64,000 nucleotides of DNA from contig CM055902.1 in assembly GCA_029582155.1 (NCBI GenBank), forward strand, positions 12,827,041-12,891,040, written 5' to 3'. The position numbers and the translations under genes were made by a program. Position 1 is the first letter of the stretch. Each line of letters begins with the position of its first letter. This document shows, in pieces, positions 4,910 to 61,023 of the stretch. The notes under the pieces were generated by a model. It was not told where the DNA came from. It made no database searches and saw only the letters and a list, made by a program, of their open reading frames with translations. This DNA is from Panopea generosa (lineage: Eukaryota; Mollusca; Bivalvia; Adapedonta; Hiatellidae).

Positions 4910-7310
4910 TTCTATTAAATGCTATATAACACATGATGTCTCATATTACGCATACATTTTATCACAGCAATATTTTCAACGGCACTACAGTAACTATGAT
5001 ACGTTAAATTTAGTGTTTTGCATTTAATACTCAATTTTATGTTGTAAATAGTATTACCATTACAAATTTATGCATATAATACAATAGCGTTTAGATATCC
5101 AAGTATATTTTATTATTTACTTCTTTATAATAATAAGATTACGAATCTCTACTTATGCACAAATATATAATTACGAACCGACCAACGTGAAATATACATG
5201 TATAGTCTTTTTGACGAAAAAAAACACAGGTTATAAACAAACAACCAAAAAAATCCATTTTAAATAGTAAAGCAAGTTTTCTATACCCTCGGCGGTTCCA
5301 CCAGCTATAGAGATGTTACAATATGCGTTTAGGTGGCTATTTAATCTAGCTGACCACCATATTGATTGACCTTGAATAGCTGCGTAATTCCTTTATTTTC
5401 ATGCATTTTTTTCAATTATGGTTTTAATACTATATATGATATGAAATACAGTTTAATTCATTAATCAACGATGAGTTTGTGTTGAGTGTTACCTTAATGT
5501 AGATGTAGATGTCTAAATGTTAAAATGTTTCTCGTGATATATTTCGCGTTTGAAACCTTAGGAAGGAATCCCAATCATGAAATCCCCAGTGCTCCAGATC
5601 GTTCTTCAATTAAAAATGAAATAGCACAGCCCATACCTGTAAATGGATTAACCTCTAACCACAGGGCAGTTTTCTTTAATAATTCGACTCAGTTACTATA
5701 GTGTTGTAAATGCATTTATTATGCACTTTGTACATAGTTATGAATTTATCTAAGTGCCCAGGTAGCATAAAGAATCACCCGTATACAAACATACGTGCAC
5801 TCAGTCACACGTGCTGATGGCGTCTTCCAAATAATTGTTAAAACATTGATGATTAAACTATACGTATAAATAGTTAAATTGAACGTAAATAGAACAATAT
5901 AAAATAAGTGTTTTAAATTATTTCCATTTGACAGTGTAATAATACATCTTTTTCGTATTTTAGATATTGATAAATGTGCCTCGAATCCGTGTAAGAATGG
6001 TGGTTCCTGTGCTAATGGAGCGAATGCATACACGTGTACCTGTGCTGCAGGCTGGACAGGGACGACTTGTGAAACAGGTAATACTGTTTTGTTCTTGATT
6101 ATGAAATACAATTCAAGTTAATGCTATATAACACATGGTGTCTCAAATTACGCATACATTTCATCACAGCGAAATTTTCAACGGTATTGTTATAAATATG
6201 GTACATTAAAAGTAGTGTATTTGCATTTTGCTCTCAATTTGATGTTGTAAACAGTATTGCCATTACAATTATATGCATATATTATATATAGCGTTTACAT
6301 ATCCAATTATATATATAATCATTTCCCGCTTTATAATGATAAGTTTCCGTATCTTTACTAATGCAGAAATATATAATTGAGAACCGTACACCGTGAAATA
6401 TACATGTATTGTCTTTATGAACGAAATACACAGGTTATAAATAAACAACGAGAAAATCCGTTTTAAAGAATTCAGCAAGTTTTCTATACCCTCAGTTACA
6501 CCAACTATAGAGATGTTACAACATACGTGTAGGTGGTTATTTCATCTAGTTGAACGCAATTTGGATTGGCCTTGAATAGCTGCGTAATTCCTTTATTTTC
6601 ATGCATTTCTTTCAATTATAGGTTTAATACTATCTATGATAAGATCATCAATCAATGATGAGTCTGTTTTGAGAGTTACTTCAATGTATATATATATATC
6701 TAAAAGTTAAAATGCTTCTCGTATAGTTTTCAGTTTAAAACCTTTGGAGGGATTTCCAATCATGTAATCCCAAGTACATCAGATCGTTCTACAATTATAA
6801 AGGAAATTGAAACTCTAAATGCTGCACATTGCTAAAAATTAGGATTTGAAGTAATTTGAATGTCCTTTAAAGTGTTTTAAAACAGATGCTATGAAATAAG
6901 AACTTTTTTGGGAAATACCGTACATTAAAATTTTATTAAATTCGACCACAGGGCAGCTTTCTGTAATTAATCGAGTAAGTTGCTAATGTTTTGTATATAC
7001 ATTTATCATGAACATTTTACATGGTAATGTATGTATTTATATGTATAGTGCTAATGTCGTCTTACAAATAGTTGTAAAACATTGATGATTAAACTATACG
7101 TATAAATAAATAAAGTAATTGTGAGTAGAATTGTGTATATATTTTATCCAAATAGACAACGGGAACATATATTGTAATGAATTTGGCAAGTTGTCTATAC
7201 CCTCGTTATCAACAATTAAACTATAGAGACGTTACAACATACGTATATGTAACTATTGATCTTGCTGGCCACCATATTAATTGACCTTGAAAAGCTGCGT
7301 AATTCCATTC
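4910..7310 (+). repeat. Degenerate tandem duplication around a gene 1 exon (three copies)
   Basis: Copy 1 (about 4910-6080) contains the EGF exon 5964-6077. Copy 2 (about 6118-7125) repeats the upstream intron blocks, starting AATGCTATATAACACATG and including GCTGCGTAATTCC and GATGATTAAACTATACGTAT, but stops where the exon should be. Copy 3 (about 7180-7310) repeats only CTATACCCTCG through GCTGCGTAATTCC. Exon-bearing DNA was duplicated at least twice and the exon was then lost from the later copies. Confidence 0.85.
5964..6077 (+). CDS. Gene 1 exon: EGF module
   Basis: 114 nt, phase 1 to phase 1, 38 residues. It opens DIDKC and shows the six-cysteine pattern with CKNGGSC and CTCAAGWTGTTC. 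The start motif suggests calcium binding, although the consensus Asn/Asp-Glu is changed to Asp-Lys. Acceptor TTTTAG and donor GTAATA are clear. Confidence 0.9.
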
Positions 7311-10300
7311 ATAATACTTTATTGACAATCAGTACTTCTTGATTATCTATTTGTGCAGACAAAACCATTTCCATTTAGTAACAAATAGGAACAACACATA
7401 TACTAAGGTGCTATGTTTTCTCTTATTTGTGTAATATTATCACTGCCAAAAGTCTCTGACACAGACACCGGACTCAATCCGCCCATTTATTCCACAGAAT
7501 CGTCGTTCGTTTATTTAGTTACGTATGTGTATGTTTAACGAATATACATCCCAACAATATACTCAATGCTTTGGAATGATGTGTTTTTATTAATCAGTAA
7601 TATTTCAATAGTAGATTGCTACAGGTAGTTCCGTATGCTCTTGTGAAAGAGCCTTTGTTTAAGGTTGCATACATCATCTTTCAAGAACGGTTAAAGCCAA
7701 AATATGTGATATACTGAAAGCTAACTAAAACTTAAGACACCTTGCCGGTTGTTGAAAACAGTTTGCGGCTACGACATTTATTGTTTACCTATGGAACGAC
7801 GTGAACATTAACCGAACCATTCAACCACCATGTCGTCCAATATTTTGTTGATCGACTTTACAACAAGTCCACTTGCTCAGAGTGCTTAAATGAATGGTTT
7901 ATTTTGGAAATCATGCTCAACTAAGTAAATGCCAATAGTTGAGTTTGGTATAATTGATAACTTATTAGATCTTCCAACTCAAGGTCATATAATTTGACCT
8001 GTAAGTTACCCAGTGGAAATGATCTGTTAAAATTACACTGAAAGAAGGTGAAGCAGCATGAAACACATTTCAGCAATAGATCAACTAATTCTATATTTAC
8101 CGGTTTGCTCATGATTTTGTGATGTTTAACGCACGACGTCGTCGGAAAAGCGAAGATGCTAATGTTTCTTCGGGGAGGATGATCGCCCCCGTTAAAATTC
8201 TGTTGACCGATATTTTCTCTATTCCAGAAACCTAAATTATGTAATACAGCATGTTAATATATCTCATCTCTTCACACCGATCCCACCTATGGTTGTATCA
8301 ATGACCACTACACACTACATTGTGTAATAATAATATCAAATCTGCTATCATAGTTTGTTACATAGGTCTTGACACTTACCGTTGTCTTGCGTGTCTTACG
8401 AGGTCGTTGTTTTGAAGACATGACAAGATAACAACTATATATATGTTTGTCATTAAGTATATACAATTCGTAAACTCTTACATTCCAAGGAAATTCTTAC
8501 ATTTTCAAATATGAATTTATAATCATTATGGTTTAATTTCAACATTCTCAAATTGAGATATAGATTGATATCTGCACATGATGAAACTGTCACATCATGT
8601 AACATTGTAGGATGAAAAATCTTCATATCAGGTCGAATAATTTATACAAAACAGACGTAATTAGATACATAAACATCATAAGATATATTTTACTTACTTA
8701 TACAACTAAATTGCGTAAAGTTGTGCACTTTATTATGTATAACTGCACATAAAATGAATAACATAGTTACACATGCATGTTGCAGCATATTAACATTTTG
8801 ATGAATCACTCAGTGTCAAAACCGATCTACAAAACTACAGCTTTATCTATATAACATGGATTCCAGGCCAGACAAAGCCAAAATTTGTTACATGTCTATC
8901 CGTACGTAAAATTATTTAGAATACAATCAAAATTGTCAAATTATGTAAACAAATAGTATAACAATAACGTTGTTGATATACTCACCGATATCACAATTCC
9001 CAAAAGGTGATAAACTACTCAGGCAAAAGGGTTTGAAAGGAAATGGTGTGTTAACTGAAAAGATATATAAAAATATTTTTGTAAGATTGATGTGACTGTG
9101 TACGTTTGATTTATATCGTTTTATATTAATTTTGTTATCATATTAAGCAAAGTAAGTTCGGTTAGGTTAAGGTAACCAACATTGTTTGTCCAATCCATGA
9201 CTCAATAAAGCAATTACATGTCTCATGTAGTAAATGTTTTATCAGATATTAACGAGTGTACCGCTGGTACAGACGATTGCGACGACACAAATGCTGAGTG
9301 TGGCAATACGGATGGTTCATTCACGTGTACCTGTAACTCCGGATTTGCTGGAGATGGCAAAACCTGTACAGGTTAGTGTTGAGGACTTATTTACGCAAAC
9401 AGCGTTTTCAGTATTTTATTTTTATTTTTGCTTTCGAACTGTCAATTATTTCTTTATTATAACGTTTAATTTATTAATCGGGACTTGACCTTCAAGACAA
9501 CATTTAATGGAATATATTTGTATAATTATACTTTACTTATAATAGTAATACGGTATAATATTGTGTGGAGTGTCTTACAATAATACAACATGCTATACAG
9601 TTCATTACATGAAATAAATCTAACGTAACATAAGCGGATTAATTTTTTTATTAAATCATCTAAAATGTAATATATCCTTTAACAGCGTTTGATTGCAATA
9701 ACGGCGGTACTTGTAAGAACGGTGGTACGTGTGACGCGGCTCCAGCAACAGCATGTTCTTGTGTAACGGGATGGACGGGAGATGATTGTGAAAGAGGTTA
9801 GTGATAAATATTGAATATTCGGCCATCTTAATAGTTATATGAAACAAACAAATCATGTTTGAATTGTATAGTATTTGTAAGCTGATCTCTTGTGTATGCA
9901 TATTTATATTCTGTACACTGAATCAAATTCTGACATGTTTGCAGTTGCGGCAGTTTTTTCTGCATGCCTAATCAGAGTATCATCACAACACCAAAAATAT
10001 GCCATTTTGTTCGCTGGGATGTTAACGGCACCAGAATTCATCCAAATATGCTCAAAATCAACAAAACCTTATCTGTGTAATTTGATCCCGGTGGCGTTGA
10101 ACGTTTATTCATGTTCCCATCGTCAACGAGTGTAAAAGCCGCACTTTAACTGAATCCGTCGGCGTTTACGAAAACTTTTATCTCTGTTGGACATACATAG
10201 ATTGCAGAATATTGAAGCAATGAATGATACGCCAAATTAAGCTACATTGAAGATTTGCTAAACTCGAGTTTATACAGGACGATGCGGTTGCGAGAGACCG

Positions 10301-11344
10301 AAACGACCCGCATGAATTTACAAACGCCAAACATTATAAACTAACCGAATTAATGCAAACAAATACACATGAATTATCTGCCAAATAAGAATGATTGTTT
10401 TAATTTATTAAAATTAATCCGTATTATTTATATCTCATTTTATGGTGTTCCAATGAAGGAAAATCGTGAAACGCCCAGTTATGATTATTTACCAACGACA
10501 CATTTTATACAAGAATATCAATTTAAAAGTTTACAAATATGAATTAATTGATTTTATTCATAAAGTAACTTAATTATGTTGATGAGAAGAAAGATCATCT
10601 GTATCCCAATTGTGAAATGTATCAGCTATCAAAGCATGTACGAATGCTTGAAGTGATATTAATATAATTTCATATAGTAATAATATCATCGTGGTGGTCG
10701 TATTTATAATTTTTAGCAACTCTGGGTGCCGACTGTTCTGGCGATGCAACTTTTTGTAGTGAAAGTGATGCAAATTCTGAATGTGATGCAGATACAAAGA
10801 AATGCGTTTGTAAATCCGGCTTCATTGATGGTGGGGCTGGAGCCTGTTCCAAAGGTTGGTGTCATGTCATCATTATTGACGAGTGTTAAGTAAACTATGT
10901 AATACTCTGCTCGTCAAGTATTTGCTACATTAGAATGCAGGTTTATGATGGTGTTTGGGAAAAGGGAAAATGAAAAGAAGAAGTGTGCTGTACATTTACG
11001 AGTATCGCATACAGATCTGCTAGAAATTAAAGTATTTTATTTTCAAACAAATGGATAGTACCATTGAGTCAGTGTTAAGAAATTAAAATAAAGAAATATT
11101 TTTTATCAAATTGAAACCTTATGTTTATGTTTCTCACCACTTGTGGGTAAATACATCACTATCTATTTTGCTGTAGTTTTTTTCTCTCTCTGTTGTCCTT
11201 TATCGGTATTTCTGTGCCTGATGAACCTGTCCAGTAATCCATTTGTTACATTATATTTCAGCTGCGGACAACTCTGCCGGCAGGATAGTGATGGCTGTGT
11301 TAACTGTCATCGTGACGATCATAACAACCACCAACCTGTTTTAA
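5964..11344 (+). CDS. Gene 1: EGF/EB-like GPI-anchored surface protein (5' incomplete)
   Basis: Five exons join in one frame: 5964-6077, 9246-9371, 9686-9796, 10717-10854 and 11262-11344. All internal borders are AG/GT with phase-1 introns. The product has four small disulfide modules (EGF, calcium-binding EGF, EGF, EB-like), then a C-terminal exon with a small-residue site (DNSAG), a hydrophobic stretch and an immediate stop. That tail is the pattern of a GPI-attachment signal, so the protein is inferred to sit on the outer cell surface. No signal-peptide exon like those of genes 2-4 was found upstream; it may lie left of the window. Introns are about 0.3-3.2 kb. The partner and function are unknown. 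The paralogue is gene 4, which shares module order at the 3' end and 3' flanking DNA. Confidence 0.8.
7921..8421 (-). CDS. Possible two-exon minus-strand gene fragment
   Basis: A frame opens MSSKQRPRKTRKTT (ATG at 8419-8421) and meets a consensus donor ACG|GTAAGTGT after 8380. Downstream, a frame of about 110 codons open between a stop near 8250 and 7921 includes NISIFAFPTTSC and HHKIMSKP. An acceptor CAACAG near 8206 would keep phase 0, but it lacks a pyrimidine tract. The basic start and the composition are unlike the surrounding intron. I recognise no family. It lies antisense within a gene 1 intron and could be a transposon-gene remnant. Confidence 0.25.
9246..9371 (+). CDS. Gene 1 exon: calcium-binding EGF module
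   Basis: 126 nt, phase 1-1, 42 residues. The start DINEC and the CGNTDGSFTCTC stretch match the EGF_CA family (D-x-D/N-E/Q-C at the N-terminus, aromatic residue before the CxC). Six cysteines are present. Borders are CAG and GTTAGT. Confidence 0.93.
9686..9796 (+). CDS. Gene 1 exon: EGF module
   Basis: 111 nt, phase 1-1, 37 residues. It starts AFDC and contains CKNGGTC and CVTGWTGDDC. It is a close relative of the gene 4 exons at 52716, 55716 and 56345, which share the AF[DN]C start and the GDDC ending. Borders are AACAG and GTTAGT. Confidence 0.93.
10717..10854 (+). CDS. Gene 1 exon: EB-like cysteine module
   Basis: 138 nt, phase 1-1, 46 residues. It starts ATLGADC and ends with CVCKSGF and a final cysteine (six in all). 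The spacing fits the EB module (LGxxC ... C ... C ... CxCxxGF ... C) known from nematode and other invertebrate secreted proteins. Gene 4 exons at 51623 and 53722 are its nearest relatives. Borders are TTTTAG and GTTGGT. Confidence 0.85.
11262..11344 (+). CDS. Gene 1 terminal exon: GPI-attachment signal
   Basis: It encodes AADNSAGR followed by a hydrophobic run (IVMAVLTVIVTII) and stops five residues after TT. There is no basic cytoplasmic tail. The small residues in DNSAG are a plausible omega site. Terminal exons of genes 2 and 4 also carry PDNSA before a hydrophobic C-terminus. TAA stop at 11342-11344. Confidence 0.85.
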
Positions 11345-11409
11345 TATAAAGATTTGACAGTGCATAGCTTAGAAGAAAATTATTAAAAATATTAGGCTAC
11401 ATATGGACA

Positions 11410-21439: not shown

Positions 21440-21525
21440 TCACAATTTTCCAAACAAAGCAATGGACAACAAAAATATCACAACAGGTACTGTCATGCCA
21501 GTCACATCAGCAGAATTATCGGGAA
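21440..21525 (-). CDS. Gene 2 terminal exon: GPI-attachment signal
   Basis: Acceptor TTTCAG, then VPDNSADVTG, a hydrophobic run (VPVVIFLLSIALF) and stop after GKL. The PDNSA motif is shared with gene 4 (PDNSAGK) and nearly with gene 1 (ADNSAGR). No cytoplasmic tail is encoded, which is typical of a GPI signal. Confidence 0.85.
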
Positions 21526-24500
21526 CTGAAATAAATAAATACACACTATGAGTAAATAGGTCACATGCTCTAATAATTTTAATCTCACATTGCTCTCGTC
21601 GATTTGTATATCACAACTTCTATTTTAATGTTATATAGTCTACAGAAATATAAGTTTAGACAAAATTAGAAATCTTTAAATAGTTCGAGGTACTGGCAGA
21701 GAAACATATTCATGGCATTACAGTGATTCCATATTAATTCATAGGAATAGATACTCTTGCATACCAGATAAAGATATCTGCATTTTTACCAGAGTTAGAT
21801 ATTTCTATCTCACCCCAGGGCAGAGATCAAATTCTCGCGATGTAACGTTAAAACAATCCAGATGACGTAACGTATCAATATATAAACGTAAATCATATAA
21901 TAAAACGTCTTAAAAGCGACCGTTGTAAATTCTATAATGATGAATTAAGTTATAATAATTATTCAATCTGTCTGGTATACAAGAAAAGTAATAGTTCATG
22001 AATTTTTGGTTCGGATGGAAATTACATTCCTTTGGATCACAGTTTTCGCGGGAGCTTCGTTCCCGCTAAAACTGTTATCCCTCGAGACGGAATTGTCAAT
22101 CCGAGCCTCAACCCCATGTACGATTCTTATAACAACATATGACTTTGTTCATTTCGTTCCATGTATTTCATTTGAAATTAAGTATACAGATTGTAATTAG
22201 GTATTGTGTCACGTGCTGCATGTTTATGAAGATTGGACAGTTAGGTATTATTGCAATATATCAAATATGATGAGAATCCAGTGAGAATTATTCAACAAAA
22301 TATTTTTATATATAAACATGTACATAATGATATCAAAAGTCAAAATGTAAGATACACGTATATCCAAATCAGCGTACAATAAAATATGGTGTTGTGCCGA
22401 ATGGACCTTAATAAATAAGCTGTTTTCAAAAAGTATAAGTTTGAACTTTCACTTTCAATACATGATGAAAAGTGTTGCACAATTGAAGCCGTATATCACT
22501 ATGTTGCATATTTCTGTGCAGTTATAATTTTTGGTTTCTTGGAATTATAGTTGTTGGAAATAGAATAGCACTAAAATCTATGATACGGAATGTATATTCC
22601 GTATAACATATGAACTTATTCTATAAAAGTCTTATATAATTTACTGCCTGTGCATTGTCCTTCCAATTAATACTTTTATCTATAATATAAAAACTATTTA
22701 GGAACTTTATTCCTAACCAAAAATGAATATGTTGGTGTTGTCTTTAGAAAATAGCTTATTTATCTGTCCCTTCCTCATTTTGTTAGGTGTATCTCACGGT
22801 GTACAACTACGTATTATATTTCTGTGCTTTTATGTGTTCTATTACTTCTATAATTTTTTATAAATCTTTGATAAAATTCTTTTATAACCAATATTGGATA
22901 TTTTGATGTTGGCTTTGCAAAAAAACTTCAAAGTTATCGGTTTATGTCAAATGAACAACAGTTTACATTTATTACCTTTTATACAGTTTGCACCGTCCTG
23001 TGAATATCCATCTTTGCATGCACACATATCAGGATCTTTGCTTGTATCACACTTTAGATTTAGTCCAGTACAGTCTGCGTCTGCTGTTCATGCATCACCA
23101 TGTCCTGAATGAAATCAAATGTGATACAGTATACTTTTTATACTATATACTTTATTTTCAAATTCGTCTGATGATGTAAAGAAATATTGTACCAACATGT
23201 ACATGTAGATCGATAACGATGAACAAACATCCCTTTGGGTTTCCGTGCAAAACGTATGTATATACTTTAGTTTCCATGTATATAGTTTCTATCTTGTTTA
23301 TGGGTGTGGTTACAAATATGCATGCAGTAAGAATGGAGAGTTATTCAGGTAATTCATAAAACTAATAAATTATATATGTACAAGCTCGAAAATCTTAATC
23401 ATCAAGAACTGGCTCAATTTAACCAAACTATTTAACTAACTTATACTATATTGACAAAACAAATTACTCGTATTACCTACTACACATTTAGTGCCATTGT
23501 AGGAATGTTCAGAAATGCAGGTACACACTTTGGAAGAACCATCACTGCACTCTTGAGATTGACCAATGCATTCTGTGTCCGCTGAACAAGGATCGCCATG
23601 TTCTGGAGAGTATATAATTTTATTAAAACATCCGATGGTTGAAAATAGGTTGGAAAATAACCCGATATCGAGGCGAAGTTGAATATAACATGACATGTTA
23701 TCCACTTTAAAATCAAGGAATGTAACTGTTCTTCGTTTATGTTATAAAATTAACTCATTTTAAACAACGTAAGCATTATACTCGTGCAATGTAAATGTAG
23801 GCTTTAGATTTTCCGGTTAAATACAAAAGTAGCAAACGCCTTCATCGAGTAATTTTATATACTTTTTTCTGATTGTTAAACGTACAGGCATATACGATTA
23901 TATTTTTATTGATCCAATCCTAATGTACAATTATACAGGGTGCTGTGTGAAACTTCAGCTATAACATCTGTAAGAGCGGTACCGTATGCATATTCAACGT
24001 AAACATGTCCAAAATCGAAACAATGAAATACCTCTATTACATTTGAGATTGCATTTCTATTTCACTAATCATATTCTAATTCACACAGGAAAGTCAGACA
24101 AGTTTTGAAATTCAAAAAACAACAACAAAGTATGCCTTATTTGACAAATATTTCTTTAAATTCACGACAACCTATTCTTTTCTTTACAAATTCTTAAAGG
24201 GCTGATATTAAACCAAAGGAAACATAAATATAGAAACGTCTAATTATTAAAACATATATTTTTTTATTTGTTTTGGTTAAATAAAAACATGGCTAGGGTA
24301 AACTCGATATTTTTTTCTTAAGCAAAAATATACAAATGAAACATATTTAAGTATTTATTATCCATTTTTTATTACGATGCACATTTAAAATTTAGTTTCA
24401 TATGTACATGTGTAATAGAATCCTATCTTTATGACCACATTTTTGACACAAATTATTAAATTGTGACGTATATATCATTTTAAAAATGAAATAGCGCAAA

Positions 24501-29519: not shown

Positions 29520-29562
<43 letters not shown>

Positions 29563-42100: not shown

Positions 42101-42672
42101 GGTAAGCCGTTTATGAAATGAGGATTATTTTCATTTTATCTTATAAGCTTGAATATATTAAGCTATAAATATATTAAATACGATGACGAAATGTAACAAG
42201 GGGAACAACTTGTACAACGTTTCATTTACTCAATGCTGATATATGGTTCATTGATGGAAATGTACGGTTAAAAATGTAATATTTTACCTACCAAATATGT
42301 ATTAGACGGATATTTAGTCTGTATTTCTAAAAACTATCAAATGAATACTTTATATCGCACGTAAGATACAACGGAAATTATATGCAGACTTAACAATGGA
42401 AATGCATGTATTAAATAGTTTGAATCATTGCATTTCCTAGATCGCGATGAATACGGCAGTATTGTTTATCTTCATAGTAACCTACTTTTTTAAATCTGAC
42501 GAAATATGAAGTTCAACCAATGAAGAACTTTACGATGTATTTCAGTTTACTTCCCGTCCACGAGACTTACAGAGAGCTTTCGCTAGAGCTGTTAACAGTC
42601 GTATACAAAGACAACGACGTATTGCAAGAGTATCACTAGGTAAATTAATAAATAGGCACAGTAGAATTCTTT
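42101..42672 (+). pseudogene. Remnant or variant gene start in duplication copy A
   Basis: ATGATTATGATG|GTAAGC at about 42101 matches the gene 4 start exon plus donor. Further on, a frame from 42447 reads MNTAVLFIFIVTYFFKSDE, a signal-like segment, interrupted by TGA at 42507-42509. It continues in the same frame as a basic segment (SRPRDLQRAFARAVNSR, then IQRQRRIARVSL). A candidate 94-nt exon (42546-42639, TTTCAG to GTAAAT) covers the basic part in phase 0 to 1. The TATA box of gene 4 is not kept here. It may be a dead or diverged family member. Confidence 0.35.
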
Positions 42673-42795
42673 AAACAGTTTGTTTTTTTCTTCGTTGCCT
42701 TATTTTATAAACTTACTAAAACACAGCTAACTCATTTCAAATGTTATGGGAAAAAATGCATCAACATGTTAATTAAATAGATAATTTAAACTTTG

Positions 42796-46660: not shown

Positions 46661-47113
46661 CTATGCACTGTTTTTTTGCAAGAAATCAGCAAGTTTAGGA
46701 AGAACAGTCTCAAGTGTTCGTTTTGTGTTGGTTACACGTGGTTGTTCTTCACTATTTTTCATTGTGAATGTACTTTGCAGTCCATCTTCACCATCACGCA
46801 TATAAATTTTCCTCAGATGCTCCAGGTTTAGACCAGATGATGCGATATTTTCAGCTGTAGGAAGTTTACAAACACTATTCGCAACCAGACATGTCAATGA
46901 TGGTAAATGTTTCGCCTTTTCTTTTGAAGATTGACACTGGTGAAACACTGCTTTTAGAGGAAAAGTGAACTTCATAATATCAGTTACTAATGTACAACAA
47001 TGTTGGAACAGTTTCATCAAAGCGCGTACATCTTCAAGAGCATCATGGGCATTATAATGTATGCTGAGAATGTCTTGAACAAGATCTCCCTGCTTGTAAC
47101 TACTTCTCCCACA
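46661..47113 (-). pseudogene. Transposon C-terminal exon with DEDDh exonuclease-like tail
   Basis: 151 codons including the stop, after acceptor TTAACAG. Early residues read YKQGDLVQDILSIHYNAHDA and then LEDVRALMKLF. The H-D-A-x-x-D-V pattern is the ExoIII motif of DEDDh (DnaQ-like) exonucleases, as seen in the PML-like exonuclease proteins of animals. The upstream ExoI and ExoII motifs are absent, presumably in the deleted part. The remaining ~115 residues have no known domain. It lies in the same TIR element as the transposase N-terminus. Confidence 0.7.
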
Positions 47114-47668
47114 CTGTTAATCATGGCTGAAAATACACAGCAACATCTAGTTAACAGTAGGCCTATACTGCGATGAATTCCATCCATAGTAATTAAATGT
47201 GTATGAATTATGCTGGCTGATATTTTTACATAAATTTCAAACTGTGGTAAATTAACACAAATTTTATAGCTAATGCATAAAACACAATATTAATGTGAAA
47301 TGGTTGGAGTACTGAATGCATTTGTAACAGTATGATATTCCACTTTGAGCTTTTGAGTGATTTTTTATCAGTAACTACATAAACGGTTGGTGGAATTTCT
47401 ATAAAAATTCACGTATGTTTTATACAAAAATCAACACAAACATTACTAAGGCATTAGACTTGAGATTTGGGTATGAAATGTCCCCAAATTCGGGTACGAA
47501 CTGACCTATTTTTGCTGGGTACGAAATGACTTGTGTACGAAGATGTAAGTAAAAGTTTGCGTGAAATCACAATAATTCGCTAATTAAACCAATATAAATC
47601 AATAGTGGAGATTCAGTTTCAATTCAATAATTTATATATTCGAGAGAATTACATTTAAAACCAGTTAC

Positions 47669-48095
47669 CTGTTCCAAGCTTTGTGTTGACAGCAAAACTC
47701 GACGCACCCTGTTTACTTCCTTTCACCAATTTACCATACGCAACACAGTTCACATGACCGCAATCAGTGTTCAAGCATTTCACATACAAATATCCTCCTA
47801 ATCCTTTCTTTAGTTCACCAATAACATTCTCCATGGATTAGGGAATAGGCCCAAGTCGACACAATTTACAAAATTTCAGCCCCTCCAACAACACGGCGAA
47901 CTCCACAACACGCCTGCCTTCTTTCGAGCTGTCATTTACAGTCCTATATTGGGTAGAACTCTCTACCTCCACAAAATCATTTGTAACGTGGCTGTGCTCT
48001 ACTCTCACGTCGTATGATGTTTCACTTTTATGAGGAGTCGTCTCTTTTTTGCAAGATGCAAAGCGGCCTCGTCGATCGCGCGTTTGTTCAGCCAT
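47669..48095 (-). pseudogene. Transposase N-terminal exon with one in-frame stop
   Basis: From ATG at 48095 the frame reads MAEQTRDRRGRFASCKKE and continues through RRVVEFAVLLEGLKFCKLC. After one TAA (47838-47840) it goes on with VIGELKKGLGGYLYVKC, DCGHVNC and FAVNTKLGT to a donor at 47669 (GTAACT). The RGRF start, the RR[VI]V block, the CxxC pair and the glycine-rich GLGGYLYVKC block resemble the N-terminal region of Mutator-like/Kolobok transposases in cnidarians and molluscs (from memory, not searched). The single stop makes this copy a pseudogene. Confidence 0.75.
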
Positions 48096-50163: not shown

Positions 50164-52964
50164 GTAAACATTTTTAGAACTGCTGATTATCATTATTTTA
50201 TTTGATAAACCTTGAAGTAGTAGGCAGCAAGAAGTTAGTTTGATATTCGTGTTTCGATATTAAATACATAATTCTCAACTTTTTGGGGATTATAAAGGCA
50301 AGGCTACGTTTCATGTCGAATATCGAAAAACAGACATGAATATCAAACTTACTTCAGACTGAAAGAAGTAAATATAGATATTTTCTGGAAAAAAATGATG
50401 AAATTTATTTGGGAGTTTTTAAGCATATGTATCGATTGTATTGTTACTAAATAAAGTACTTCTCGTAATTGTTATTGAATTGTATCTCATGATATGTCAT
50501 ATGATGTAAACATCCTGCATTCTGATTGTTCAAGTACTAATAATAAGGTGATTTTATTCTTCTCAAACTGTCGTACTTAATTCCAGGAGCGGTTGATCTA
50601 CACCGTGATTTTGTGCTATTGTGTCAGCAGTGTGCTAATTACACAGTCATCAGGTATGGCATTTCTATAAATAGTAATATAATTATAAAACTTAAGCTGA
50701 CAATTATCACTTATCTATCTGGACCTCCGCATTTTTATCATAATGTATTCTTTTAAAAAGTGTTATCTATCTATGTTTAATTTTTTATTCTTATAACCCT
50801 TTATGAACAAACTTAATAAACCTGTATTTGCTATTGTTCTTGCTCTATTTGTTCACTTCTGTTTCTTATATTTAGTTTAAAACAACAATGGTACTTCAAA
50901 CAAGAACATCGCTGAATTTTTCGAAATATTGCTTTATTTAACATACTGTATAGCCGTAATGGTTATTCTTGAAATCGTCTTAAACTGTATCATTTTGACT
51001 GCACCACAAATACATTTGTATCTTACAACGACAGCACATGTTATGTTTAAAAAAAATAATAAAAGAAATAGGGTCACCATCTTGCACACTTGAACCAATG
51101 TTTGATATTGATATTGGGTCAAAATGTCATTGTTTATCTCGTAAGCACTCTCGACTGTCTAAAACACATTTAATGTGTTGTTCAATATTAGATGGGTCAA
51201 AATGTAATTATGACCGAGACAGTCGAACAAAACTCCATATAAAATTTTATACCATTTGAGAAAGAAAAAAATTTCGAAAATGTCATTTTAGAAATACAAA
51301 CTTTAAGAAAATAGATGCTTGCAAAAAAAGCGACAAATTCTATTTGAAGAAAATCTACAGTTTGAAAAACAAAATTAAAATTAAAACTTCAAATAGAATT
51401 TTGTGATTTGTTTAAGAAAACGCAATTAAATTGAAAAGTATCTTTGATTGTACCTAACAAATATACAATTTAAAATTAGAACTTTGGCATATTGATCAAT
51501 ATTTAAAATCAGTGAAAATTTCTTTAGAAATTTCTTGAAATACATTTAATTATTTCTGTTATTCACTTGGCGTGTATATCGTGCATGCATTATGTTAACA
51601 TATTAATATTTCTTCATCGCAGCTGCCGTTGGTGCTGACTGTACTACTAACCCTACTACGGTTTGTGTTGATGCTAGCCAAGAAATGTGTGAAACCAATG
51701 TCTGTGTTTGTAAAACAGGCTTTGTTAACAATGCCGGAACATGTACAGGTAATGGTTTGTTTACAATTGAAGATTAGTGTTAGTTATAAAAAACATACGT
51801 TAATGATACGTGTTGGAGGATGAAATATCTTATAATGAATTATTTTAAGTAGTGAATTAATATTCAAGCCATGGTGTATTATCCTAATATATTCATTGTT
51901 GCTAGTTTTTAAAATATACTGCATACAATGCGGACATTATTTTTGTTGTGAATATTTTACAAACCAAATAACGGTTTTAAATAAAAAAAAACTATTGACA
52001 ATATACAAAACTAAGCGAAAAACAATATCAATTATAAATAAAGACAAATGCAGTTTTAGAATGAAAATATACCGTTAATATCAGATTAAAATCATTATTA
52101 AAGTGATTTTAACTTTATATTGAAATTGTATATGTCATTGTTTAGTATGCAACACCATTTTATTGTTAACAGAGCGATCCTCATATAAATACAGCGTTTT
52201 TCCCTGTCGACTCATAACTATAATTATTGTTGTTAAGGTTTAAGAAAATAGATTAACATTTATAGTCTACAATCATATATTGATATTTATATCTACTATT
52301 TGATTTGATTTATTTATTATAGATCTATAAACTATCATGAACATATAATTTAGTTTTAAAAAAATAACCTTCAAAACAGTATTGAAATAATAACAAATGT
52401 AGAAAAATCATTTAAATTCATAGAATATATATACAGGAGAAAGTGAAAATCTGTTAGTATACAACAATGTGTCACAGATCAAAACTCCATGTAAATTAAA
52501 TATATTCAATATTTAAGTGTGACATGAAACGGTAAGTTTATAGTGTTAATAAAATAATCAAGTATATTATATGTGTACACATTTATGCCTTCGACCTGAA
52601 AACAAAAAAAGCTTCACATTTTCAAAACTTACATGTTAACGTCCTGACATACACTTAACATATTGTAGGACATGTATTCTGAAAAAGGGTATTGATAAGA
52701 AAAACTCTGTTTCAGCATTTGATTGCAGTAGCGGTGGTACCTGTAAGAACGGTGGTACGTGTGGCTCCTCCAATGCAAAAACGTGTACTTGTGTAACGGG
52801 GTGGAAGGGAGATGACTGTGGAAGAGGTAAGAGACAAATATCAAACTATCATCAGCTAATGTTATGTTTCTCTAATTTTAATGATACTGTATTTTTTTCA
52901 ATATACACAATATCTGCACAATTTCTTAATACGATAAATGTCGGCTGCTGAAAGAGGAAGTACT

Positions 52965-53009
<45 letters not shown>

Positions 53010-56000
53010 TTTTGATCTTTTGCAAACAGCGTTGTTTGTCTGTACGCATATATTTTGTACCGGACCATTTCCATTCTATTCACAGAGAACATATTATGAA
53101 TTTATATTCACAAGCTACAATTTAAATCAAAAGCAAACGGACGTAGAATTAACCATTCTTATAGAATTGGTGTCATGCAATAAAATAACTAGCATTCACT
53201 GTTCCTTCATTATCAAAGAGGTTTCTATGTCTGTCCTATAAGGTTTTACTTACCATTTACCTCCCCTTAGTGACGGTAGCAAGATTACTGTGCCTAAAAA
53301 ATTATAGTTGTGTAAATCGGTTGGACATTATATGTGTTGAAAATACTTAAAATGGTCATATTACTTAGTACATATGCGAACAATGGAACATTTTCATGAT
53401 TTCTGGCAAGTTTGGATGTTATTAGGCACTGTTGGATTAAGATATATAACAGTTTAAAGATGCGTAGTGATACACTGCAACAAATGGGCAGAATTGTCAA
53501 AAATGAAGGGTGTCCTCAAGCATCGAAATTGTGAAAAAACAACCTGGTCAACCCCATGTTTTTTCTGCATAATTGGACGAACAGAGGACTATCTATGGCA
53601 ACAAGGCACTTTTATAATCATTGGTAATGATACAGTGTTCCAGAAGTGCGTGTTTCTATATATAGAACAGTATAAAATAAATTGTTTGGCGAGACATTAG
53701 CATAATATTTCTTCAACGCAGCTACTCTTGGTGTTGGCTGTTCTAGTGCTAGTATTTGTACTGCTACGAACAATGAAGCGTGTGATAAAGGTGGAAAATG
53801 TGCTTGTAAACCAGGCTTTGTAGACAATTCTGGAACATGTAAAGGTAGTATTTCTTTTACATTTGAAGATGTTTATATCTTTAAAATAATGTATTTATGC
53901 GTAATATGGGATAAAATTCAGTATTTATTAAACATTTAGATAGTGGTGTTTTACCGACAAACTGCCAGGTTTTGCTCATTGTATTGAACTTGATGAAATA
54001 TAATATGTGAAATAAATAGTGTATCAAATCAAATAGAATTCTTATCAATAAAATAAACAAAGTTAAAAGTAAAAATGACATTTATTCTAAGCAGAGTTAC
54101 AATTATACATTTAGTCAGGAAGGTTACTATAATTGGTATCAGACAAACCTCATGAAGCGATTGAAACATTATGTTGTTATACTATATGATAAATCAATAT
54201 GTAGGATGAAATATTATGCTGTCATAACAAACACATTTAGCATGTAAAGAAAACGTTCTTTATTGTGGAGTTATAGTTAAAATATTATCATTACTGTTGA
54301 AGAAATATGAATTAACATTTATCATTTTTATGAATTCTATATATTACATCTTACTCGAATTATACACATTATTGAATTGTTTATGTTTGTTTTAATCTGA
54401 CGATTGAATAGTACATACATGCTTAGTCATTTGGTATTTTAAGTAATCTCAATATTTATAGAAATTGAAATATTTTGTTTTAAAGTTTAGTTGCTTTTAT
54501 TTTTTTCGTTCGGTATTTACATTTTTTGCTACTTACTCTGCGTATGTGTATTGTACTCATTATGATTAATCTGTATATTGATTGTGTTTGTCCTGTTGTG
54601 ATGGCTGTTTGATTTTAATAAAACATTATATTTTGGGCATATATTAATATCTAATGTGTGGTATGGTCATATGTTTCAAAACCAATGTTTTTCTTTACTT
54701 TAGACATAAATGAATGTCTGTCGAATCCTTGTTTGAATGGCGCTTCCTGTACCAATAGTGACGGTTCATGTTGGAGAACTATCATAAGAACCGCACCTTT
54801 GCGATGTTTATGATCGTTTCATATTTATTACCTTATCAAGAATGAATTAATGAAAGGGGTTCACTCTACATGTACAAAAACAACAAATTAAGATACAGAT
54901 AAAAAAATACATCAACAAATGAATATGCAGAATGAATCTAGAACCTTGATACCTGCAGAACTGCAGAGTTTCAACAAATTCTATCGTATTATTCGCTTCT
55001 TACGACATGCATAAGCTACAGTGATCCTATTCTTGCCATCACTCATGGCTCCCTGGAACCACACAGGGGTTGATAATTTAACCATAATAGTGAACATAAC
55101 AAAAAATGATAAAATTGACATGACACCCATTCGAAGTATTCCTTCCCCTCTGCAGAGATCGACAGTGATTCTATTCTTAGCCGGAACCGCACGGGCTACT
55201 TTATCAAGAGACCAAACCACTATTTTAAAATAAAATTTACATACAATAAATGATTATTGTCACCTGCAGCTAGATATGTATCGATTATACAGTAAACTGC
55301 ATAACATCATAATGATTATAAAATTAATAAGAAGCAAAATAATTTTTAATTCATATCATATTAGTAAGAGTTTAAATGTCAACTTGTAGAAACATACAAA
55401 AAGGATAGACTTTTGGTGTCATGGATCATATGTATTAGATCTATTAAAAATAATGTTTGTTTTTACCTCTGTATGCCACTGGTGTTTAATTTTGATGTAT
55501 GCATATAACGGTCACATCAATCATGACTTAAAACAGAAACGTGTACGATGATCTTTACGTTACTACAATACTGAAATATACTGAAATTTTATATTTGACT
55601 TAAGATATGCTTGAATTTTTTAAAATTCTTTACATTTAAACGACGTCATATACACGTAACATACTGTTAGACATACAGATTAAAAGAACTCTTGATGAAA
55701 TAAACTCTGTTACAGCATTTGATTGTACCGGTGTCACTAATGCCTGTAAGAACGGTGGTACCTGCGAGGCCGGGAAAACAACGTGTACTTGTGTAGCGGG
55801 ATATACGGGAGATGATTGTGGAAAAGGTCAGTGACAAATATCTGCAGACTACCATTAGAGTAATGACAGGTGTTGATAGTATGGTAATGTTAAAGGTTTT
55901 TGATCACTTAAAAATCGCCGTTAAATATTAAGATACAAAACGGATGTTGATACTAAATGTGTGTATATAACATTTATGTATATTGGCTTTACAGTCCAGA

Positions 56001-59000
56001 TGTGTTACATGTACGTGTTAAACCTTGATAAATAATCGATGGTTGAAACAAATTCATTTGAGTTGGTTGATTTTATTGTAGGGTGTTCTTTGTTTGCATT
56101 GTCGCTAGGCGCACTCACCGTAATATTTGATGTACATGTATGACTGGTTTGTTCACAAATAATTATCTATATGTACATTTAATAAGATCCCAAAATGGTG
56201 TGATTAAAGTATTGTCTCTCTCATATACAGTAGAGAGAATCACTATTTTAAAGTGATATGTATATATCATAAAGAGAATTATACATCTAACAAATCAGGA
56301 ACATACAGATTAAAAGGATGTTGATGAAATAAACTCTATTACAGCATTTAATTGCAAAGGTGGCACTGATGCCTGTAAGAACGGTGGTACGTGCCCCGCC
56401 GGTGAAACAGCGTGTTCTTGTGTAGCGGGATATACGGGAGATGATTGTGGAACAGGTCTGTGACAAATATCTGCAGACTACCATTAGAGTAATGACAGGT
56501 GTTGATAGTATGGTAGTGTTAAAGGTTTTTGATCACTTAAAAATCGCCGTTAAATATTAAGATACAAAACGGATGTTGATACTAAATGTTTGTATATAAC
56601 ATTTATGTATATTGGCTTTACAGTCCAGATGTGTTACATGTACGTGTTGAAACCAATTACTTAAAGTTGGTTGATTTTATTGTATTGTGTACTTGGTTTG
56701 CATTGTCGGTAGGCGCGCTCACCGTAATATTTGCTGTACATGTATAACTCGTTTGTTCGCAAATAATTATCTATATGTACATTTAATAAGATCCCAAAAT
56801 TGTATGATTAAAGTATTGTCTCTCTCATATACAGTAGAGAGAATCACTATTTTAAAGTGATATGTATATATCATAGGGAGAATTATACATCTAACAAATC
56901 AGGAACACTGGATCCACGAAGGATTCATATATGATAAAAATAGAAAATACAGGAGAGATCATTACCATCTTACAGCGCTATTTTTATACGATTTAGTACT
57001 TTACAGTGGTAATTGTCTCTACTGTACTCATGAATATACAATATCTACGAATACGTGGTCGAGCTTTGATAGATTAAAATGGGATAATGCTACAAAGAAC
57101 AACTTTGTTTACAGACTAAGGTCATCTTTTGTTGAACTTAAATGTATATGAATTTAGAAATGCCATGAAAATCAAATCAAAAGAGTGCTTATGAAGGTCT
57201 AGTTGTTCAAAGTAATATTAGGTTTACTCCAGGTTAAGATGAATGTTTGAATCATTGTATTTTGAGATGTAATACATTGAAGGTTACACTGTTCTGGTAA
57301 TCGTAACAAAATGTCATTTTATTCCTATAACCCACTCTAATAATATATAAAAAGCGTTGAATTTCAAAGAAATTGAAAATACACTAATTTACCTAATATT
57401 TCATCTAAAACAGCTTTGAACAAACAAGCACGGATCGTTGAATGAGCCATACCATTACCGTAACATTTTAATAGATATATCAAGCAGACTCTTAACAGGA
57501 ATGGTGTTTGATAGAATTGAATACTGGGTCGATATGTATATCAACATAGATGAAGCGCGTTCGGAATTCAAGACCGATTACTCAACTGTAGACAATTTAT
57601 ACATGCAAATATTTATAAAATCTAAGTAAACAATGACGCGGAATATTTATTTGTCGAATTTCCCAAATCTTTCGACAACTTTGAACTGTTTAATAGTTTG
57701 ATCAGGAAAACATCTGCAACTATTTTTTTCAGCAATGTATAATTGTCTTTATCAGTAAGTACGTACAGATAGAACAAACTATACACAGATCTTCATAAAA
57801 CAATGTAATAGTGGTTACCGATCAGATTGTAAATTAAGTACAGTACCTATAATAAAATTTAGTCTTTATATACATGACTTAATATATTAATTTAAAAAGG
57901 TGCTTTCGTTAAATTCATGTCACTAATGAGGTTAGTATAATATTTGCTCGTATGTTAGCAGACCGTTTGACCTGTACTGAGTTAGACAATTTCCTATGCA
58001 ATTAAATGTGATTTCAAATCTTTGTTATAGAACTGTTATGTCTATTAATCTTCAGAAAACAAAGATTATTATTTTATGAAATGGTGGTAACCTCAGAGGT
58101 AATGTAACATAGACATTCAGTAGTAAAATTATATAGAAACTTCTTTTTTTTGTGATAAGTATATGTCTCATTATGACACCAAAACTAATTTGGTCTAACA
58201 CTTGATAAACATTAATAATATAAAAGCTATTTTGTCAGTTTCTAAACTTAAGCAATATGTTGGAACATTTGAGTACCTTTTGATACGACGGTCTTACCAA
58301 TTCTTACGTATGTATCAGAAACATGGGCTATGCATATTCTAAAGATATAGAAAAATGTTGATAGGTATCCAATTTTGTATAAGCTATCTAAAAACTTTCC
58401 AAAAATATGTTTCATGCTTTGTTCTTTTGGAAAAAGCAGAAGATACCCGTTATCATTTATTTTTATTGTAAATGTGTAAAATACTGGTTAAGACTAACAC
58501 ATTTAAACTATAATAGAAAACCTAGACAATATTATATTATGTTTACGAAAACTTGATGCTGTTTGTGAAATATATTTAAAAAGCAAGCTCTTTTGGATTA
58601 AATTATTCATTCTCCAGGGTATGAAAATAAAAAATAAAATGGGAATGTTTACGAGATGTAAATAAAAGATTATTGTGATATAAACATGGAACTATGATAC
58701 ACTCAAAATGAATATCAATTGTATGGTGCAAATCTTCAAAACTTAGACCTATGATATGCGCGTTCAGGCACGCATAAACTAAACAAAAGTATAAAACAAG
58801 TTATCAATCAATTTATATGATTTATATTGTGTTTTGCGTAAAATAATTGTACTAAAATTAAAATTATATACGTAAATTATGTAACGTAAAGTTGTTATTA
58901 AAAAAATGTTTCTCTGAAGTGACGTCATTGCAAGTCGTGTATTGTTTGGGGCCATGCCGTCATTTGCAATTAATACGACATTTAATTTAACGTATAGTTT

Positions 59001-61023
59001 AGTCAAACATATTACAGATATGATGAATAATCGCTTTTGTTTAAATCCAATAGAAAATTGGTATTGAATCATCTGATTCAATAGGTCCAAAGATCTTTGC
59101 GATGCTTATTAGTCCAACTTGAATCATGATCAATGCGATGAAACATTACATGTACATCGGCAAACCAATGCCCATCACTATTGTTATGTACAGAGACGGG
59201 CGAGTGAATAAATATTAGTAGTTTCCAATCTGATCTATGCAGATTTGCACCCTCAATGTCAGCAGCACATGGATAGGTGTTTACATTGTATAGCATACAA
59301 ATGTAATACCAATAAATGATCAAATAAGTAATATTGGTATTTTCATATTTCGAGTTTGTAATGCATGTTTTGTCTTTGTTAGATGTGGATGAGTGTGAAC
59401 CAGCTCCTTGTTTGAATGGCGCCACCTGTGTCGATGGGGTGAATTCTTACACTTGTACCTGTGTCACAGGGTGGATAGGCACAAAATGTGAGAGAGGTAA
59501 TACTGTTTCCATTATGAGTGTCGCCATACATTTATATATTTGATATGGAAGAATACATAATAAAAGGAATTTAACATATTTAACAAAATTCAATTTTGAT
59601 TTTTTTTTCTTATACTGTTCATGTGGTTTACAACTTCAGTTATGGATATATTTTTTCATTCAATAATTACGCTTAAATAATCTACTTAATAAAGAACAAG
59701 ATTATTGAATTTTGACAAAAACCGTTTCACTCATAATATATATTTCAACAGTAATGTTAAATGGCAAATAATGACAATTTGACATATTTTATGCATTCTT
59801 AATTGTTAGTCAGCTATACATTTTTAAACTATCTTAGCAACACAAATAACAGATAAATTATGACATGCCAGTATGATGTAAGAATATCAGCTGACAAATA
59901 TACGTTTGAAAGGGGATAGGATTTGTCGAACAATTAAGACAACATATTTTACATGTCATGTGAAAATAACGTTACCACCAATCCAATTGCAAAAAACGAA
60001 CAATAACGAATTACCACGTGATATAAAAGATCAGCACTGATATGTCAATTTTATAGTGGTCTTATATTTCACTCTCTACTAAGACTTCCAAACTCTGTTT
60101 ATTGATCAGTGTACATTTTAGCTATTGTTGTTGCCTGTGCTGGTTCACCTCTGTCATGTCCTGCAACTGTAGATAATGGTGAATGTTTTGGCAAGGATTG
60201 TGTCTGCAAGGAAGGTTATCAGAAAGAAAAAGATAACTGCGTTTTCGGTAAATATAATAATTGTTTACGGTTAATGTTAAATACATTCAATACAACAATA
60301 CACACTCTAACTTGAATCAATAACATTGTTTAATAACTTATATTTTTAATATTATATTTAAAAAAATCTAAATAAACAATGAACTATCTTTATTTATCTA
60401 CCACATCGGTTTATGGTGAAGCGCCCAGTGGTACAACACCAAATCCAAGATCGGGGGTCGTTTGTTCAATCCTCTGACACTGCAATGTGTGGTGACAGGG
60501 AGTTAGACACCTTATATTTATATTCTTAATAGAGGTTCTTCACAGGAAGTCTTATACCGTGATTTGACACACATGTAAAACGTTGTTCTTTGAGAAAATG
60601 ATGAAGATACCCGTTATATTTTATTCTTATTGTAAATGTGTTAAGTACTGGTAAGAACTGACACGTTTAAACCATAATAGAAAACCAAGACAATATTATA
60701 TTACAACTAAAGTTTCAGATATCTTATTATAACAATGGATTGCATCTATAAAGTTTACTTATTTCACCAAAATGACAAGAATTTGCCAAAAGTAAGAACT
60801 GTTTAGAAAAATGGTGTCTATTATGATATAATAATCATACAAGTATTTAGTCTTTATAATATTTAAATAATAGTTTACATTGTTGGTATTTCTTAAATAT
60901 GTATTGATATATCTATATATATAATTTCCTTCAGTTCCAGACAACTCTGCTGGCAAGATAGCGATGACTGCAGTAACGATGTTGATGGCAGTCCTGACAA
61001 ACATCATAATACAGATGTTTTGA
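50158..61023 (+). CDS. Gene 4: EB/EGF modular GPI-anchored surface protein
   Basis: Exons: 50158-50163, 50587-50653, 51623-51748, 52716-52826, 53722-53844, 55716-55826, 56345-56455, 59383-59496, 60122-60247 and 60935-61023 (a dead exon at 54704 is left out). The predicted protein of about 327 residues has a signal peptide, then EB, EGF, EB, EGF, EGF, EGF, EB and a GPI signal. Intron 1 is phase 0; all others are phase 1 with GT/AG ends. The frame is open throughout. It should be extracellular and membrane-tethered, held by roughly 21 disulfides. The role is unknown; surface recognition or adhesion is a fair guess for the fold types. A TATA box precedes it. LINE debris fills the intron between 56455 and 59383. 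Confidence 0.85.
50587..50653 (+). CDS. Gene 4 exon 2: signal peptide
   Basis: 67 nt, phase 0 to 1, same length and phases as the signal exons of genes 2 and 3, beginning with the same ER/QL. It encodes ERLIYTVILCYCVSSVLITQ and SS. Borders are TTCCAG and GTATGG. Confidence 0.85.
51623..51748 (+). CDS. Gene 4 exon: EB-like module
   Basis: 126 nt, phase 1-1, 42 residues. AAVGADC at the start, cysteines at 7, 15, 23, 28, 30 and 41, and CVCKTGF. Borders are ATCGCAG and GTAATG. Confidence 0.9.
52716..52826 (+). CDS. Gene 4 exon: EGF module
   Basis: 111 nt, phase 1-1, 37 residues: AFDC start, CKNGGTC, CVTGWKGDDC. It is the counterpart of gene 1 exon 9686. Borders are TTTCAG and GTAAGA. Confidence 0.93.
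52968..53006. repeat. (CT)n microsatellite
   Basis: An uninterrupted CT tract inside a gene 4 intron. Confidence 0.97.
53722..53844 (+). CDS. Gene 4 exon: EB-like module
   Basis: 123 nt, phase 1-1, 41 residues: ATLGVGC start, cysteines at 7, 13, 21, 27, 29 and 40, CACKPGFVDNSGTC at the end. Borders are ACGCAG and GTAGTA. It is the counterpart of gene 1 exon 10717. Confidence 0.9.
54704..54813 (+). pseudogene. Truncated EGF exon in gene 4
   Basis: Acceptor TTTAG, then DINECLSNPCLNGASC and TNSDGS, the first half of a calcium-binding EGF module. After about 54768 the sequence is foreign and the frame closes at TGA 54811-54813, with three cysteines and no donor. The missing half is not found before the next exon. 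Because neighbours are phase 1-1, skipping this exon keeps the gene open. Confidence 0.8.
54769..55240. other. Inserted DNA of unknown origin in gene 4
   Basis: This stretch begins inside the broken EGF exon. It contains a 79-codon minus frame (54981-55220) in which KNRITV occurs twice about 44 residues apart, matching the DNA repeat ACAGTGATCCTATTCTTGCC near 55018 and its variant near 55163. The frame also has a hydrophobic stretch (MSILSFFVMFTIMV). I do not recognise it; a mobile element is likely. Confidence 0.4.
55716..55826 (+). CDS. Gene 4 exon: EGF module (duplicate 1)
   Basis: 111 nt, phase 1-1, 37 residues: AFDCTGVTNACKNGGTC, CVAGYTGDDC. Borders are GTTACAG and GTCAGT. Confidence 0.93.
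56345..56455 (+). CDS. Gene 4 exon: EGF module (duplicate 2)
   Basis: 111 nt, phase 1-1, 37 residues: AFNCKGGTDACKNGGTC, CVAGYTGDDC. Borders are ATTACAG and GTCTGT; the donor is weaker than that of its twin. Coding changes cluster between the cysteines while flanking intron sequence is nearly unchanged. Confidence 0.92.
56908..58700 (+). pseudogene. LINE remnant inside a gene 4 intron
   Basis: An open stretch of about 80 codons ends with SSFDRLKWDNATKNNFVYRL, possibly the endonuclease-RT linker. Then a 63-codon frame (57438-57629) has FDRIEYWVDMYINIDEAR and DYSTVDNLYM, resembling the N-terminal RT block (Q-x-G-F-R-x-x-x-S-T-x-D). Further down come QKTKIIIL-NGGNLRG, AYSKDIEK and KYWLRLTHLNYNRKPRQYY. 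The order is that of a LINE ORF2 with frameshifts and stops throughout. Confidence 0.75.
59383..59496 (+). CDS. Gene 4 exon: calcium-binding EGF module
   Basis: 114 nt, phase 1-1, 38 residues: DVDECEPAPCLNGATC and SYTCTCVTGWIGTKC give a textbook EGF_CA module. Borders are TTGTTAG and GTAATA. It resembles the broken exon at 54704 in the CLNGA block. Confidence 0.95.
60122..60247 (+). CDS. Gene 4 exon: EB-like module
   Basis: 126 nt, phase 1-1, 42 residues: AIVVAC start, cysteines at 6, 13, 22, 27, 29 and 40, CVCKEGY. Borders are TTTTAG and GTAAAT. Confidence 0.88.
60413..60530 (+). mobile_element. tRNA-derived SINE
   Basis: GCGCCCAGTGGTACAAC (box A-like) and CGTTTGTTCAATCC (box B-like) lie about 45 bases apart, within the last gene 4 intron. 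Confidence 0.6.
60590..60710 (+). pseudogene. Short LINE fragment
   Basis: It repeats 58430-58550 closely (GAAGATACCCGTTAT, CAAGACAATATTATATTA), i.e. the KYW...NRKPRQYY part of the LINE protein. It is a second copy from the same or a related element. Confidence 0.7.
60935..61023 (+). CDS. Gene 4 terminal exon: GPI-attachment signal
   Basis: Acceptor CTTCAG, then VPDNSAGKIAMTAVTMLMAV and a hydrophobic end with TGA at 61021-61023. It shares DNSAG with gene 1, and no basic tail follows. Confidence 0.87.

Follow-up and report, generated by a model that had tools for sequence, protein, structure and literature searches.

Organization of the locus

The window, which is the whole 64,000 nt stretch of DNA analysed here (C9:12,827,041–12,891,040), is eukaryotic sequence with a mean GC content of 31 % by base counts, and four neighbouring genes, genes 1 to 4, lie wholly or partly within it. 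Window exons were located by six-frame and splice-border scans, which recovered the exons listed in an earlier note on this DNA. All 14 intact module exons (EGF, EB-like and CCP) are multiples of 3 in length, are bordered by AG and GT, and are of phase 1-1, bearing out what had been claimed for the one-module exons. Six-cysteine module patterns flanked by usable phase-1 borders number 13 in the window, against none in any of 60 dinucleotide shuffles. Three leader exons of 67 nt and phase 0-1 are present in the window (genes 2, 3 and 4); they are hydrophobic and encode a putative leader peptide. Likewise, three terminal exons with a DNSA motif (genes 1, 2 and 4) encode a small-residue site at the C-terminal end and, after it, a hydrophobic tail that runs to the stop, a putative GPI signal. 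The earlier note had both exon types common to the four genes; for the leader this stands within the window for three genes, that of gene 1 being outside it, and for the anchor it stands for all except gene 3, for which no anchor was found. No convincing start-codon exon, only weak candidates, was found in the stretches scanned upstream of the three leaders. One such candidate, MK|GT at 49673, was not trusted because it sits within a repeat shared with 41607–41759.

Gene 1 (plus strand) has four phase 1-1 exons in the window: an EGF module exon at 5964–6077 (114 nt; PF00008, 35.1 bits against a cut-off of 21.5), a calcium-binding EGF exon at 9246–9371 (126 nt; PF07645, 43.7 bits, cut-off 27), a further EGF exon at 9686–9796 (111 nt; PF00008, 26.8 bits) and an EB-like six-Cys exon, named from alignment, at 10717–10854 (138 nt). 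The terminal exon, with its putative GPI signal, is located at 11262–11344 and encodes ADNSAG, a hydrophobic tail and a stop. There is no gene 1 leader inside the window; a leader match was found at C9:12,812,604, 14 kb upstream of the window, and is followed by EB-EGF-EB exons before the window's five exons. A diverged tandem repeat (4910–5622, 6112–6807 and 7150–7309) surrounds the first EGF exon, and these repeat flanks do not contain a second one. An exon may have been lost from one copy, or this may merely be a repeat element.

Gene 2 (minus strand) starts with a leader exon at 26100–26166 (GT donor), followed by two phase 1-1 EB-like exons, at 24705–24851 (147 nt; no Pfam EB match at E≤1) and at 23477–23602 (126 nt; EB 17.3 bits, below the cut-off of 24.3). 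A third EB-like exon, at 22976–23104, is a pseudo-exon in which an in-frame TGA takes the place of the codon for the first Cys in its paralogues. The terminal exon at 21440–21525 encodes PDNSAD, a hydrophobic tail and a stop, again a putative GPI signal.

Genes 2 and 3 are arranged head to head, and their leader exons are 84 % identical. The gene 3 leader exon (27714–27780, plus strand) has a GC donor, gcaagt, and the single module exon of this gene, at 28589–28765 (177 nt, phase 1-1), encodes a CCP/Sushi module (PF00084, 46.2 bits, cut-off 20.7). The surrounding stretch, 26436–31699 (+), is 82–91 % like C9:14,608,853 down to 14,603,390, which belongs to a complete CCP gene (C9:14.598–14.608 Mb) with the order leader-CCPx4-EB-anchor and a DNSA motif in its anchor. 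Similarity to the complete gene stops at window position 31699, and gene 3 thus has no counterpart of CCP2–4, the EB module or the anchor. By this alignment, gene 3 is a 3′-truncated copy without an anchor. Upstream of the GC-class leader exons there is a conserved block, ACATCCTTGGAACGGTCA, at window 27621–27638 and in L018 and L020–L022 (with one difference in L021), which may represent a promoter or part of a first exon; it contains no conserved ATG paired with a phase-0 donor. A foldback-like dispersed repeat with inverted arms 90 % identical is present at 3620–3988/4357–4721, 28849–29367 and 31205–31527, and also in the CCP paralogue.

Gene 4 (plus strand) is the longest series in the window. 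Its leader exon, at 50587–50653 (GT donor), is followed by EB-like exon 1 (51623–51748, 126 nt; EB 21.3 bits), EGF exon a (52716–52826, 111 nt; PF00008, 25.1 bits), EB-like exon 2 (53722–53844, 123 nt; EB 21.4 bits), an EGF-exon remnant (54704–54769; PF00008, 20.0 bits against the cut-off of 21.5) of which the second half and the donor are missing, EGF exon b (55716–55826, 111 nt; 26.0 bits), its tandem copy, exon b′ (56345–56455; 25.9 bits), EGF exon c (59383–59496, 114 nt; 37.2 bits) and EB-like exon 3 (60122–60247, 126 nt; EB 12.3 bits), the intact module exons being phase 1-1 and all three EB scores below the cut-off. The terminal exon (60935–61023) encodes PDNSAG, a hydrophobic tail and a stop, also a putative GPI signal. 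The original description of four genes must be read with the stop in the third EB exon of gene 2, the truncation of the gene 4 exon at 54704 and the 3′ truncation of gene 3 in mind.

Identity of the modules

The module labels given previously were confirmed in Pfam for the 7 of 7 intact EGF exons in the window (PF00008 or PF07645) and for the CCP exon, and were not confirmed for the EB exons, none of the seven of which passes the cut-off for Pfam EB (PF01683, 24.3 bits). Five of these seven match below it, with a best score of 21.4, and two (10717 and 24705) have no Pfam EB match at E≤1. The seven exons align with one another on their cysteines, and five align to the last six-Cys part of PF01683. 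A profile of the seven compared with solved structures matched 4 sequences up to E 1, the best being the EGF domains of NELL2 (E 0.0047). An AlphaFold model of the EB-like module has a pLDDT of 86.6, and a Foldseek search of the PDB with this model returned nothing at E≤0.001. Since all of the exons fall below the PF01683 cut-off and the best profile match is to NELL2 EGF domains, the EB-like modules may be divergent EGF-like modules. Among the 50 genome matches listed over the Pfam EB cut-off (150 of 543 candidates scored), none is in the window. True Pfam EB module groups were seen elsewhere, at C5:31.90–32.64 Mb (with regularly repeated spacing), C14:49.79–49.87 Mb and C4:59.51–59.64 Mb.

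Distribution of the family in the genome

Leader, anchor, CCP and EGF exons were used as queries in DNA searches of the whole genome (1,474,161,289 bp, or 1.47 Gb, in 39 contigs), for which match counts can be lower bounds. The gene-2-type leader and the gene-4-type leader have 15 matches each, and the gene-4-type anchor 18, the gene-1-type anchor 6, the CCP exon 7 and EGF exon b 39, in every case all on C9. The gene-2-type anchor has 9 matches, 7 on C9 and 2 on C3 (at 20,326,716 and 20,450,506, 80 % and 77 % identical, respectively); the gene family is therefore not confined to one chromosome. All C9 matches are located within 12.71–15.77 Mb. The match lists of the leader types do not overlap, nor do those of the anchor types, so that counting members by these exons, the check proposed in the earlier note, gives 30 leader and 33 anchor matches, with 61 of the 63 on C9. 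A search for the myticin family found no match in this genome, and likewise none in the control genomes. No relatives were confirmed in viral contigs. A Cys-rich relative, 30 % identical, was noted in a metagenome-assembled bacterial genome (L001, 3001–4260).

All 15 gene-2-type leaders are open over 66 nt and 14 are directly preceded by AG. Their donors are GT in 8, GC (gcaagt, as in gene 3) in 6, and shifted by 3 nt in one (L021). Within 3-kb loci, a CCP exon follows five of the seven GC-class or shifted leaders (L018, L019, L021, L023 and L024), and an EB exon follows two of the eight GT-class leaders (L010 and L011). A gene-2-type anchor is located about 4.5–15 kb downstream on the same strand for 7/8 GT-class leaders, linking the two exons as parts of a single gene; for the remaining leader, at C9:13,871,749, this genome search found no gene-2-type anchor. 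Among the 18 gene-4-type anchors there are 8 with DNSA, 7 with DNAA and 3 with other motifs, and 17 end at the usual stop, one lacking it.

Several paralogues could be read as whole genes. P43 (C9:13.836–13.856 Mb) has the order leader-EB-EGF-EB-EGF-EGF-EB-anchor, and P44 (C9:14.197–14.234 Mb) has leader-[EGF-EGF-EB-EGFca]x2-EGF-EGF-EB-anchor. The frame is open from the leader to the anchor stop through the 8 exons of P43 and the 13 of P44, and the internal exons of both (6 and 11, respectively) are all multiples of 3 with AG/GT borders. P46 (minus strand, near C9:14.66 Mb) reads EB-EGF-EB-anchor, with a leader match just past the stretch read, while P57 is leader-EB-EB-EBc-EBc-EBc-anchor and P58 is leader-EB-EB-EB-EB-EB-anchor. 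The exons had been called fully interchangeable. Their phases are indeed compatible, but the module sets seen track the leader class: CCP modules go with GC-class leaders, EB-only sets with the GT-class genes read so far (gene 2, P57 and P58), and EGF/EB sets with gene-4-type leaders.

Exon turnover between paralogues

Exon duplication, exon loss and gene duplication, all of which had been proposed for the locus, are supported by comparisons of gene 4, of gene 2 with P57, and of gene 3 with the complete CCP gene. Within gene 4, a tandem duplication (55671–56907, plus strand) has doubled an EGF exon; its units, 55671–56303 and 56301–56907, are 89.6 % identical. Compared with P44, gene 4 has lost 392 nt between two GTTCAT repeats (6 nt), and with them half of the exon at 54704 and its donor. 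Additionally, the gene 4 segment 54350–60745, with five exons including the remnant, has no counterpart in P46. The EBc exon is present once in gene 2, where it carries the stop, versus three times intact in P57 in units of 319 nt, with aligned parts 85–93 % identical. Gene 4, P43 and P44 show a mosaic pattern that is no more than suggestive; very few sites bear on an exchange involving exons b, b′ and a and gene 1, and none is claimed.

In P44, a 17.2-kb self match at 99.6 % identity corresponds to an exon period of 15.53–15.54 kb, that is, a 15.5-kb block. The two copies are adjacent and their exons differ by 0–3 of 123 nt, as would be expected if part of the apparent turnover, above all this block and the close paralogue pairs, were uncollapsed haplotype or misassembly. 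The other events, however, are between copies 75–95 % alike and have clear breakpoints, and are poorly explained as artefacts; an assembly origin is considered improbable.

Selection on the exons

For EGF exon c, EB-like exon 3 and the anchor taken together, pN/pS is 0.39–0.62 in all six pairs among gene 4, L043, L044 and L045, and pN is below intron divergence at p<0.001 in three of these pairs and not significantly so in the other three. Pooling gives a pN/pS of 0.49 across 15 leaders and 0.54 across 18 anchors, and the EBc exons have values of 0.14–0.55 in 6/6 pairs. The comparison of gene 2 with P57 is mixed: the leader has 0 synonymous and 3 nonsynonymous changes, and the ratios are 1.0 for the anchor, 0.72 for EBa and 0.58 for EBb. 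Positive selection as the engine of diversification was considered on the basis of two exon pairs in gene 4 that looked promising. EB1/EB2 have an omega of 1.5–1.65 (interval 0.77–4.4), and exons b/b′ have 15/111 differences against 32/503 in their flanks (p=0.017), with an omega of 0.81 (0.24–3.65); pS is also high for the latter pair and the upstream flank alone has 10/54 differences. The wider comparisons show purifying selection, and this explanation was set aside. Most exons are coding and constrained, with the modules mostly under purifying selection. The family had been called fast-evolving, which is apt for its exon content, which turns over, but not for its coding sequence; because the modules are mostly under purifying selection, the term fits exon turnover rather than sequence.

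These values also bear on whether the cluster could consist mainly of dead duplicates, with few working genes among debris of exon shuffling that tandem duplication has spread. The truncated gene 3, the nonsense exon of gene 2, the truncated exon of gene 4, the anchor without the usual stop and the leader without AG at the expected border are all of the kind to be expected in that case. However, pN is lower than pS for leader, anchor and module exons in the pooled comparisons, and frames of 8 and 13 exons have stayed open in P43 and P44. Additionally, the nonsense exon of gene 2 is symmetric and could be skipped. Decay of most of the cluster is considered improbable.

Proposed mechanism and function

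We put the probability at about 80 % that the window is part of a gene cluster on C9 (12.71–15.77 Mb, with two further anchors on C3) encoding secreted, probably GPI-anchored modular surface proteins in which modules are gained and lost exon by exon. As read from the sequence, members have a 67-nt leader exon, a variable run of phase 1-1 one-module exons (EGF, EB-like or CCP) and a short terminal exon that combines a DNSA, DNAA or similar motif with a hydrophobic tail. The internal exons are symmetric (phase 1-1), so that whole modules are added or removed without a frameshift when introns undergo unequal exchange, tandem duplication or deletion; paralogues at different stages of the process coexist in the cluster. 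Provided that splicing is as modelled and that secretion, GPI anchoring and cell-surface binding follow, proteins with these similar leaders and anchors would display their small disulphide-rich modules as a rod at the cell surface, and a changed number and kind of modules may alter its reach or its partner.

The genes are likely to form a family of GPI-anchored proteins for recognition or adhesion. Among such roles, immune or other non-self recognition seems the most likely, and this is advanced tentatively. EGF, EB-like and CCP modules are also used in adhesion, gamete or self recognition, and extracellular matrix and mineral proteins, and a non-immune role of the same family somewhere in that range is given a little under an even chance. 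In sequence, the nearest solved structures are those of Delta-like 1, Notch and coagulation factors, which amounts to EGF modules at large; selection is as a rule purifying, and no sequence feature points to immunity in particular, all of which favours a non-immune role. Large numbers, clustering on one chromosome and frequent exon gain and loss would, however, be unusual for conserved developmental genes. Going further with the immune or non-self reading, the cluster could be an invertebrate receptor locus of the cassette type, with at least 30 genes on a single chromosome. Leader and anchor exons of similar sequence would then frame exchangeable EGF, EB-like and CCP exons, and continuing exon gain and loss would give each haplotype its own GPI-anchored recognition set; this is possible, if rather doubtful.

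Evidence for the shuffling of phase 1-1 module exons usually comes from inferences about ancient events. The present cluster offers recent cases in which exons were duplicated or deleted, a block was duplicated and a gene was truncated, with readable breakpoints, and the rates at which modules are gained and lost could be measured in it. If haplotypes differ, it could be asked whether an invertebrate builds individual-specific surface repertoires by exon turnover.

Relation to known systems

CD55/DAF and other vertebrate complement regulators carry four CCP modules between a signal and a GPI anchor. The complete CCP gene of the cluster has a similar layout (putative signal, CCPx4 and putative GPI anchor) as far as sequence can tell, but carries an EB-like module before the anchor, and its sister genes have EGF/EB in place of CCP modules. 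In bivalves, tandem expansion of CCP genes is described for clams, with ‘P-selectin’ expansions that carry CCP with or without CLECT and EGF (PMC9484242). The present genes resemble those described there in being a tandem expansion that uses CCP modules and, in some genes, EGF modules, and differ from them in that no C-type lectin domain was found in the window exons or ORFs scanned and that most cluster genes read are EGF/EB without CCP.

Phase 1-1 exons are reported to be strongly increased in metazoan genomes (PMC6547436) and are a hallmark of metazoan shuffled modules (PMC6547436, PMC2926785). The cluster is like other exon-shuffled extracellular proteins in having one module per symmetric phase 1-1 exon. 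It differs in that similar leader and anchor exons frame differing module classes (EGF/EB or CCP) and in that gain and loss are visible between close paralogues. In mussel, dispensable genes show presence-absence variation, belong to young expanded families and are affected by structural variation (PMC7653742); the likeness is in the young, expanded families affected by structural variation, whereas the comparison made here is between paralogues within one assembly and not between individuals. What sets the cluster apart is readable recent exon turnover combined with two kinds of ectodomain that share similar leaders and anchors. Among the papers listed by literature searches, none was recognised as describing this leader/module/anchor family, which is not proof of its being unpublished.

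Other features of the window

A Pfam scan for other genes in the window took in 100 ORFs, out of 134 recorded outside the spans of the four genes and 228 of at least 55 aa in the window as a whole. At 46664–47116 (−) there is an ORF whose product has a PML C-terminal domain (PF25244, 1.3e-18), and a weak Mutator-like transposase match (PF20700, 8e-4, below the cut-off) is nearby at 47658–47837 (−); both are probably mobile-element remains. A minisatellite with 27-nt spacing occupies 42668–44300, with a GC skew of 0.37 in the 42001–44000 bin. At the start of the window there is a 31-nt tandem repeat (1–217), followed at 1163–2411 by an array of diverged ~170-nt repeats.
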